NCBI GenBank assembly: GCA_004348925.1
Contig: RCMX01000006.1
Span: 23,339-87,338, forward strand
DNA length: 64,000 nt
DNA from: Actinomycetota bacterium
GTDB taxonomy: Bacteria > Actinomycetota > Coriobacteriia > Anaerosomatales > Anaerosomataceae
Reading direction: 5' to 3'
In this document: one piece after another, positions 23,140 to 58,363 of the stretch
How the letters are laid out: each line of letters opens with the position of its first letter
Position numbering within the stretch: position 1 is the first letter of the stretch
The notes under the pieces: model-generated
Databases searched by the model: none
What the model saw: only the letters and a program-made list of their open reading frames with translations
What the model was told of the DNA's origin: nothing
Translations under genes and position numbers: made by a program

Positions 23140-24108
23140 TCAGGTCTGGATGAGCGCGCTCACGCCGTCGTCTCCGGCAGCGCGGATCTCGGCGAGTATC
23201 TCCGAGGCGCCCATGTCGAGCATGCGATCGACCATCGCCGCGCCAAGCTGCTCCGGCTCGGCCATCGTGCCGGTGAGCGTGTGGCGCAATAGCGTCACAC
23301 CGTCGAGCGAGCCCACGAACGCGTCCATCGTGAGGCCACCGTCGCCCGCTGGCGTTGCGTACGCGCCGATCGGCACCTGGCAGCCGCCCTCGAGCGAGCG
23401 CATGACGACCCGCTCGGCACTCACGCAGGTGAAGGTGACAGCGTCGTTGATGGCGGCGCACACCTCCTGCATGAACGCGTCATCCTCACGGATCTCGATA
23501 CCGATGGCGCCCTGCCCTACCGCCGGCGTCATCTGCACGGGATCGATGTAGTGCGTGATGCGATCCGCCCAGCCCATACGGGTGATACCCGCGCTGGCAA
23601 GGATGACCGCGTCGACCTCGCCGTTCTCGGCCTTGCGCATGCGCGTGTCCAGGTTGCCGCGCACGTCCACGATCTCGAGGTCGGGCCGGAGCGCCATCAC
23701 CTGCGAGCGACGGCGCAGCGACGACGTGCCAAGACGCGCACCATGCGGGAGCGTATCGAGGTCGTAGCCGGCGCCCGAGACGATCGCGTCACGCGGGTCG
23801 ACCCGCGGCGGCATCGCCGCGATCACGAGGCCCTCGGGCAACTCCGTGGGAACGTCCTTCATCGAGTGGACACAGAGGTCCACCGTGCCGGCCATGAGCT
23901 CGACTTCAAGCTCCTTGGTGAACAGGCCCTTGCCACCGACTTTCGCCAGCGGCACGTCAAGGATCTTGTCACCGGTGGTCTTGATGATGGTGAGACATAC
24001 CGGGAGACCGGTGATCTCCTCGACCTTCGCCTTGATGTATTCCGACTGCCAGAGCGCGAGCTTGCTGCCCCGCGTTCCTATCGTCAGTCCTGTGCGCTCA
24101 GCACCCAA
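23140..24108 (-). CDS. hemC: Porphobilinogen deaminase (hydroxymethylbilane synthase)
   Basis: Enzyme of 322 residues polymerising four porphobilinogens. It has GTRGSKLALWQSEYIKAKVE at the N terminus, the active-site loop GTSSLRRRSQVMALRPDLEI, and the cysteine that carries the dipyrromethane cofactor in LEGGCQVPIGAYA. The start is a TTG at 24108 lying inside the last codons of hemA (11-base overlap), with GGGAG seven bases upstream; no ATG or GTG fits better before the conserved GTRGS. Translation should be coupled to hemA. Confidence 0.95.
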   Translation of the reverse strand: MGAERTGLTIGTRGSKLALWQSEYIKAKVEEITGLPVCLTIIKTTGDKILDVPLAKVGGKGLFTKELEVELMAGTVDLCVHSMKDVPTELPEGLVIAAMPPRVDPRDAIVSGAGYDLDTLPHGARLGTSSLRRRSQVMALRPDLEIVDVRGNLDTRMRKAENGEVDAVILASAGITRMGWADRITHYIDPVQMTPAVGQGAIGIEIREDDAFMQEVCAAINDAVTFTCVSAERVVMRSLEGGCQVPIGAYATPAGDGGLTMDAFVGSLDGVTLLRHTLTGTMAEPEQLGAAMVDRMLDMGASEILAEIRAAGDDGVSALIQT

Positions 24109-25465
24109 GCGAATCTCCCATCTCGTTCCCCGCGGTCTCAGCGACGTCCTTCGCGCGACGATTCAGCAGGTCACGCAACCTCCCGTGCCCGCGTCCCTCG
24201 CTGTCGTCCAGCCCGTACAGATGCCGGGCCGTCTCGATGTACTCGTAGCCGTCCTTGGCCTCGGCGGCCTGCTTGAGCCGCTGCGTGGGGCCATGCAGCA
24301 TCTTGTTCACGATCGCGCAGGTCAGCGCGTCGATCGTCTCAAGATCCTTCTCCGAGAGGTTCCCGAGCCGCTTGCACGCCTTCTCAAGCTCCGCCTGGCG
24401 GATCACGTCCGCGCGTGCTCGGATGGCGGCGACCGTCGGCTGCACTTCGAGCGACTCGCGCCACCGGGCGAACGAGGCGAACTCCTCCTCGATGATGACT
24501 TCTGCCCGCCGAGCTTCGCGCATGCGCTCTTCAAGGTTCGACTCCACAACACCGGAGAGGTCATCGATGTCGTAGAGGAAGACGTTGCTCAGGTCGTTCA
24601 CTGCCGGCTCGATGTCACGGGGGACCGCGATATCGATGAGGAAGAGTGGCCGTCCACCGCGACCGCGCATCGACTTTGCGACGTGCTCCTTGGTGATCAC
24701 GTAGTGCGTGGCTGCAGTGGAAGAGATGACGATATCGGCGTCGTGCATCCGCTCGTACAGGTCGTCGTAGCGAATCGCTTCACCGTTGAATCGCTCGGCA
24801 AGCTCCTGCGCCCGCTCGAACGTCCGGTTCGCGACGAGCACGCTCTTCACGCCCTGGCTCACGAGATGCTTCGCCGTGAGTTCGCTCATCTTGCCCGCGC
24901 CAAGCACCAGGATCGTGCGACCGGCGAGCGTGTCGAAGACCTTCTTGGCGAGCTCGATGGCGGCGTAGCTGATCGATACGGCGTTCTCGCCGATCTCGGT
25001 CTCGGTGCGAACGCGCTTGCCGACCTCGAAGCTCTGTCGGAAGAGCTTGTTGAAGACCTTGCCCGTCGCGTCGTTGTTGAGCGCGTAGTCGTAGGCCTCT
25101 TTCACCTGGCCGAGGATCTGCGCCTCGCCGATCACCATCGAGTCGAGCGAAGCCACGACCCGGAACAGGTGCCGCACCACGCTCTCGCCGTGGTTGAGAT
25201 AGAGCGAGCGCACCAGCTCATGGCGGTCGAGCGAATGATACCCGGCCATGAAGTCGATGACGGCGTCCACGCCCTCGTCCGCGCCCGATGCGACCGCGTA
25301 GATCTCGGTGCGGTTGCAGGTGGAGACGATCACGGCCTCGGCGATCGCATCGCCCGAGGTCAGAAGCGTCAGCGCCTCCGCCTGCTTGTGCGCAGGGAAG
25401 GTCAGTCGCTCCCGGATCTCGATGGGCGCGGTCTTGTGGCTCAGACCGACGAGGATCAAATGCAT
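24098..25465 (-). CDS. hemA: Glutamyl-tRNA reductase
   Basis: Enzyme of 455 residues reducing glutamyl-tRNA to glutamate-1-semialdehyde with NADPH, the committed step of the C5 pathway. It shows VGLSHKTAPIEIRERL, the catalytic cysteine in VSTCNRTEIYA, and the NADP fold VLGAGKMSELTAKHLV. It heads the hemA, hemC, cobA-hemD, ahbC operon. Upstream are a likely extended -10 promoter and a leader with three interlocked inverted repeats, so the operon's entry step may be controlled there. The ribosome site before the ATG is weak, which also fits control of translation. Confidence 0.97.
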   Translation of the reverse strand: MHLILVGLSHKTAPIEIRERLTFPAHKQAEALTLLTSGDAIAEAVIVSTCNRTEIYAVASGADEGVDAVIDFMAGYHSLDRHELVRSLYLNHGESVVRHLFRVVASLDSMVIGEAQILGQVKEAYDYALNNDATGKVFNKLFRQSFEVGKRVRTETEIGENAVSISYAAIELAKKVFDTLAGRTILVLGAGKMSELTAKHLVSQGVKSVLVANRTFERAQELAERFNGEAIRYDDLYERMHDADIVISSTAATHYVITKEHVAKSMRGRGGRPLFLIDIAVPRDIEPAVNDLSNVFLYDIDDLSGVVESNLEERMREARRAEVIIEEEFASFARWRESLEVQPTVAAIRARADVIRQAELEKACKRLGNLSEKDLETIDALTCAIVNKMLHGPTQRLKQAAEAKDGYEYIETARHLYGLDDSEGRGHGRLRDLLNRRAKDVAETAGNEMGDSLGC

Positions 25466-25515
25466 GAGTCTCGCTTCACTGCTTCACGACCGGTCGTCGT
25501 GTGTCGGGGCATGGG

Positions 25516-25612
25516 TCGCCCCCGCCGGTGCGGTGCGTTGTTGTTCAGGCAAGCAGGCCCGGCGGGGGCGATGTAACGCGCTATTGAACGCACCATGTGC
25601 GCTTGCCTGAAC
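25516..25612 (-). promoter_or_regulatory. hemA leader with three interlocked perfect inverted repeats
   Basis: Three perfect inverted repeats lie in 97 bases: 25516-25528 with 25559-25571 (13 bp), 25532-25539 with 25587-25594 (8 bp), and 25543-25554 with 25601-25612 (12 bp). The arms run A, B, C, A', B', C', so every pair interlocks with the others rather than nesting. In the hemA transcript this means mutually exclusive hairpins or a compound pseudoknot. The leader ends about 50 bases before the hemA ATG. No known riboswitch class is recognised. Confidence 0.7.
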
Positions 25613-25648
25613 GAATGCATCGTAGCATCTGGGTGGGGTCGCGAACAA
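25601..25648 (-). promoter_or_regulatory. hemA promoter with start-proximal GTTCAGGCAAGC motif
   Basis: Minus strand: TTGTTC (25643-25648), 18 bases, then TGC-TACGAT (extended -10, 25619-25627), six bases, then GTTCAGGCAAGC (25601-25612). The ccm promoter has the same 12-mer at the same six-base distance from its -10. The motif would lie at or just after the transcription start. Confidence 0.5.
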
Positions 25649-58131: not shown

Positions 58132-58363
58132 CCTATCAGGCTCTCGCCTCCCTTACCCCAGAGATGACACGCCTCAGGCCCCTTTTGCCGGGGGACCCGT
58201 CGGCGTTGTCTCCTTTCCAAGGGGGGAGGCGTCACCGTTTCCAGTGGCACCCTATCGGCTCAAAGACCGTGGCGTACGGCCACGCTGTAGGTCGGAGAGC
58301 TCGGAGACTAACTGCCTATTCTGTTGCCCTGGGGAAATCTGCCGGGATTCCCGATTCCAGGGA
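58082..58363 (-). ncRNA. Structured leader RNA or small RNA upstream of fdnG, class unknown
   Basis: The 487-base gap 57966-58452 has no convincing gene. Between a palindrome at 58364-58381 and the terminator, the minus strand can fold into several helices: TGACGCCTC (58226-58234) with GAGGC-GT-GTCA (58165-58175), enclosing CCTT-GGA-AAGG and GGTCCCC/GGGGCC hairpins, plus GTGGC/GCCAC near 58270-58285. The sequence GAGCC(T)GATAGG occurs twice (near 58250 and 58135). Terminator plus folded upstream domain is the layout of a riboswitch. A molybdenum-cofactor sensor would suit the gene, but I cannot match it to a known class by eye. Confidence 0.5.

Follow-up and report, generated by a model that had tools for sequence, protein, structure and literature searches.

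The window, as we term the whole 64-kb stretch of DNA analyzed here, has the minus-strand gene order ccmA-like, ccmB, ccmC, ccsB-like, sirC, SDR, hemA, hemC, and cobA-hemD, with a structured element located between the SDR gene and hemA. The hemA gene (24098–25465, minus strand) encodes glutamyl-tRNA reductase (TIGR01035, 497.8 bits). A Moco (molybdenum/tungsten) RNA motif (RF01055, 67.8 bits) was also identified in the window, at 58194–58318 on the minus strand. Between the element and hemA is a small hairpin of variable sequence (25466–25511, ACGACCGGTCGT), which takes the form GTCCGC..GCGGAC elsewhere in family f1.

The element comprises three inverted repeats within 97 bases, recovered at exactly the positions given in the original prediction, each of them perfect and each crossing the other two: helix A (13 bp; A1, TCGCCCCCGCCGG, 25559–25571, and A2, CCGGCGGGGGCGA, 25516–25528), helix B (8 bp; B1, GGTGCGTT, 25587–25594, and B2, AACGCACC, 25532–25539), and helix C (12 bp; C1, GTTCAGGCAAGC, 25601–25612, and C2, GCTTGCCTGAAC, 25543–25554). 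Because hemA is on the minus strand, the sense order of the arms, all given here as read from that strand, is C1-B1-A1-C2-B2-A2, i.e., ABCABC. A1 and A2 are the 5′ and 3′ sides of a core hairpin, the loop region of which (GGCCTGCTTGCCTGAACAACAACGCACC and neighbors; 25532–25560, minus strand) is nearly invariant and contains both C2 and B2. Across the order, helix C has 8 bp (GUUCAGGC/GCCUGAAC) with a looser extension and helix B has 7 bp, with GTTCAGGC (25605–25612) as the conserved part of C1 and GGTGCGT as that of B1; the longer perfect arms of B and C are the version of the window’s genus. This is the only ABCABC triple in the window with arms of at least 8 bp (33 bp of arms in total), and 40 sequences of 64 kb simulated with a first-order Markov model yielded an average of 0.1 triples with a maximum of 27 bp, which upholds the earlier view that the arms are too long to be due to chance. 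The element is present as a single copy in the genome, based on BLAST and a covariance model.

Taken alone, the helices of the window have predicted energies of −20.8 (C), −11.9 (B), and −31.6 (A) kcal/mol. The strands between them (C1-B1, 6 nt; B2-A2, 3 nt; A1-C2, 4 nt) form a three-way junction, with the far ends joined by C2-B2 (3 nt) and B1-A1 (15 nt). Thus, helices A, B, and C are not obviously exclusive and could coexist, and they may form one compact fold rather than mutually exclusive states.

Distribution and predicted start of the transcript

Of the 69 genomes of the order Anaerosomatales (Coriobacteriia), 65 have the element according to a covariance model built on 57 distinct sequences (using helix A and sequence), and it is upstream of hemA in all 57 distinct leaders examined. 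There is one element per genome, except for G127, which has a weak second match on the opposite strand, overlapping the first. The four genomes without a covariance-model match are G040 (99% complete) and G025, G034, and G053 (65–82% complete). The original prediction would have been refuted by loss of the arms in close relatives; this did not come true, although the near-complete G040 lacks the element. The latter is a natural loss: hemA and a short leader with a promoter-like motif and GAGGCGAG are present (L070), and the element is gone. No matches were found in the viral contigs searched, and core-pattern matches in Roseivirga (L130) and Clostridia (L146) were taken as chance because they have no hairpin context.

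Upstream of C1 is a −35-like hexamer, TTGTTC (25643–25648, minus strand), with TTG at −36 to −34 from C1 being the commonest triplet among the 57 leaders. This is followed by an extended −10 motif, TGCTACGAT (25619–25627, minus strand), which matches TGnTAnnnT at −15/−16 in 48 of the 57. From the conserved promoter, transcription is predicted to begin at the initial G of C1 (25612, minus strand), 6 nt past the −10 motif and with a pyrimidine at −1 in 52/57 leaders. A simple sigma-70 scan did not report a promoter before C1, and the predicted promoter therefore rests on conservation. The original prediction would have been undermined by a transcription start downstream of 25516; the predicted promoter is upstream of the entire element.

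No match to the element was found in Rfam 15 at the gathering score, with permissive E-values giving sub-threshold matches only, and no hemA-leader RNA of this kind was found in the open literature searched. The earlier suggestion that the RNA may be new is consistent with these searches. The element is a genuine leader RNA that neither Rfam nor the open literature searched describes.

Comparative evidence for the three helices

When the structure of 29 pairs is placed on the sequences of the order, 93.4% of cells are paired, compared with 35–45% for slid versions. Within the order there are two-sided changes at some pairs of helices A and B and none in helix C. A phylum scan identified distant homologs in another class, in which helix C has two-sided changes: GUUUAGGC/GCCUAAAC (f46 and f96), GUUUAGAC/GUCUAAAC (f46), and GUCCAGGC/GCCUGGAC (f97). 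In these distant homologs helix B has been rewritten (AAGUUC/GAACUU; AGCGCAU/AUGCGCU), and the sequence of helix A is mostly different.

When two-sided changes were reconstructed by parsimony on a tree of the hemA proteins from 66 taxa, 46 were counted (A, 21; B, 22; C, 3); the B counts are inflated, as the B1 arms of the relatives were selected manually or for their best pairing. The mean was 1.70 two-sided events per true pair, compared with 0.084 for 702 mismatched column pairs. Three B pairs retain two-sided changes even in a plain MAFFT alignment of the order. In a partner-swap permutation of 13 elements, arms preferred their own partners for both helix B (p = 1.5e-4) and helix C (p = 5e-5), although the 13 elements are related and these values are not strict probabilities. 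Helix B is imperfect: 91.8% of its cells are paired, and a one-base bulge is required in several of the f46 versions. Based on these comparisons, the three mutually crossing helices each have their own support, allowing for the inflated counts in B. The original prediction proposed a structured hemA-leader RNA and covariation of each arm pair as its test; compensatory changes were found in every helix.

In the second class, the element precedes hemA or ccm (heme delivery) operons: it is before hemA in f87 and f97, and in f46 it is before a ccmC-ccmE-ccmF operon, with hemA ~7 kb downstream. A further gene context is mogA-ccsB-sirC-hemA. A compact C1-A1-C2-A2 version (helices C and A) with a T-run (T6) precedes a gene for an FtrD-like (PF10080) protein in G671 (L194, reverse strand, with GTTCAGGC ~1500 from the end). 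From the annotated neighbors, the shared theme of these contexts is heme supply and use.

Proposed mode of action and competing explanations

The comparative data show that the element is conserved, and they support all three helices, the position of the promoter, the association with hemA or ccm genes, and a U-tract after helix A in several relatives; we naturally infer that the element controls hemA. Helix A would be a GC-rich hairpin with a large, nearly invariant loop that displays C2 and B2, and the 5′ end of the transcript itself (C1 and B1) would pair with this loop to give the ABCABC knot. This pairing would decide whether the hairpin lets expression through, i.e., attenuation. In f87, f74, and f93 a T-run follows hairpin A, as in an intrinsic terminator (the T-runs were read from sequence, as a terminator scan that allows loops of up to 8 does not detect hairpins with loops this long). 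Helix A with its U-tract resembles an intrinsic terminator, and thus the 5′ end would pair with the loop of the terminator and the output would be termination. There is no U-tract after A2 in the window (GACCCAUGCCCC is found there) or after helix A in most Anaerosomatales; in Anaerosomatales that lack it the output would take another route, for instance by governing how accessible the hemA start is. Heme or an end product of tetrapyrrole synthesis is the probable signal. We lean toward the combined reading that the element, counted from the predicted start, makes up the initial ~97 nt of the hemA mRNA and serves as a cis-regulatory leader RNA of the heme/tetrapyrrole pathway in which pairing between the 5′ end and the loop decides expression. 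Several findings argue against it: most Anaerosomatales have no U-tract after helix A, helix C has no two-sided change within the order, helix B is imperfect and its counts are inflated, G040, which is near-complete, has hemA and no element, and the core loop is conserved without a C1 in cis in f20, f21, f74, and f93, such that its conservation does not derive solely from pairing with C1.

In f20 the loop without C1 is before hemA, and in f21 it follows ccmBC and a ccmD-like gene; thus, the loop must serve some role beyond pairing with C1 in cis. In the f20 hemA leaders (L236, L237, L239, and L240), the place of C1 and B1, immediately upstream of A1, is taken by a variable hairpin (GTCAT..GCAAAG/CTTTGC..ATGAC), which appears to covary. 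Among the f21 sequences (L233, L234, and L241), the stem sequence of G069 differs and the loop is conserved.

In f74 and f93 the two halves of the element appear to be at different sites. All seven hemA leaders begin with GTTCAGGC; each has a terminator-like hairpin, and none has a canonical C2. In four of the seven genomes, a promoter-like site and a terminator-like hairpin are also found separately beside moaC/mogA, with the C2-B2 loop intact and no C1 (L118, 1532–1632, minus strand; L128, 1933–2032, minus strand; L157, 4993–5099, plus strand; L121, 1057–1158, minus strand); mogA is on the opposite strand in G650. Also in L118, at 1446–1535, is a long palindrome with a sub-cut-off Rfam match to plant MIR405, which is probably a small inserted repeat. 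Pairing of the hemA 5′ end with the moaC-mogA hairpin in trans is predicted at −22 to −26.5 kcal/mol, compared with −10 to −16 kcal/mol in cis. This arrangement suggests, as a hypothesis, that the element was split by duplication and reciprocal loss and that the halves act in trans.

It is accordingly possible, and we hold it tentatively, that the core loop is mainly the target of a partner in trans (RNA or protein), with C1-B1 as a built-in competitor and the f74/f93 hemA leader and moaC-mogA hairpin as a trans pair; the retention of the loop in f20 and f21 is in keeping with this. However, pairing of the B part in trans was not partner-specific in the permutation, no hairpin partner was found in the three less complete f74/f93 genomes, and the f21 genomes have the loop yet no hemA match. 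The broader proposal is more speculative, and we regard it as unlikely in its full form: the ABCABC (pseudotrefoil) RNA would belong to a novel class that responds to heme or a tetrapyrrole and exists in both cis and trans forms, with duplication and reciprocal loss having divided it, in two families, into a hairpin RNA that acts in trans and the hemA leader that it targets.

For the Anaerosomatales, which have genomes without a U-tract, a translational switch is conceivable, and we are doubtful of it: C2 would pair either with C1 or with AGGCGAG/GAAGCGAG, where the ribosome would bind before hemA, freeing or hiding the hemA start. An SD-like motif, GAAGCGAG, precedes hemA (25470–25477, minus strand), and its GCGAG part, with which weak pairing of C2 is possible, is upstream of the hemA start in 31/57 leaders, compared with 4–6% of other gene starts; CUUGCCU of C2 is complementary to AGGCGAG. 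Nevertheless, this pairing spans just ~5 bp in the window’s family, about one-fifth of other genes match the median hemA in C2 pairing, and the G040 leader retains GAGGCGAGC despite the loss of C2. Two further candidates around A2 were rejected: an NTG start with an ORF overlapping the hemA start, as for a leader peptide, is found only in part of f1 and in one f12 genome, and A2 as the ribosome site for such a start is not general.

A role mainly in shielding the hemA mRNA from decay at its 5′ end, rather than in sensing, is improbable: the predicted transcript does begin inside helix C, but protection leaves unexplained both the near-invariant loop sequence and the terminator form in relatives, and the loop is also found at positions other than a 5′ end (f21). 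Very improbable is a T-box-like sensor of tRNA-Glu, the HemA substrate, with UGAA of C2 facing the anticodon; UGAA would be complementary to UUCA of the tRNA-Glu anticodon loop, but C2 changes to UAAA together with C1 in f46, and there is no T-box match in Rfam. A chance or DNA-level repeat (mobile element or protein sites) with no RNA role found no support in the data and is already refuted in practice by the covariation in all helices, the single copy, the fixed position after the promoter, and the absence from viral contigs.

Significance and relation to known systems

The hemA element is a candidate conserved RNA control point at the committed tetrapyrrole step in anaerobes, and one that is testable; some of these anaerobes carry multiheme cytochromes, presumed to be for iron reduction (PMC9686372). 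If the element senses heme or a porphyrin this would be notable, because no heme riboswitch was found in the open literature searched. The element’s apparent occurrence in both cis and trans could illustrate how a leader RNA evolves into one that acts in trans, or how the opposite change takes place.

Topologically, the ABCABC knot is uncommon, and in this case comparative support exists for each helix. ABCABC pseudoknots (“pseudotrefoil,” subclass 1C) account for 51 RNAs in RNA STRAND, compared with 1688 of the H-type (PMC3390330). The hemA element has the same arc order as subclass 1C, but is an mRNA leader that is conserved and linked to a single pathway, and all of its helices covary.

With the fluoride riboswitch type (a pseudoknot and terminator platform; PMC11077080), the hemA element shares a short 5′ leader in which an early segment pairs with the loop of a later hairpin and, in some relatives, an intrinsic terminator downstream. 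Unlike that type, the hemA element has three mutually crossing helices of 8, 7, and 12 bp and no Rfam match, and in some relatives the loop-bearing hairpin itself precedes the U-tract. The separate hairpin of f74 and f93, which presents the complement of the hemA 5′ end, is reminiscent of the trans-acting bacterial small RNAs that pair with mRNA 5′ ends; this putative RNA differs in being homologous to a cis element through apparent reciprocal loss. The Moco RNA motif is likewise the leader of a cofactor pathway, and in the same genome, whereas the hemA element is unrelated to it in both sequence and structure.
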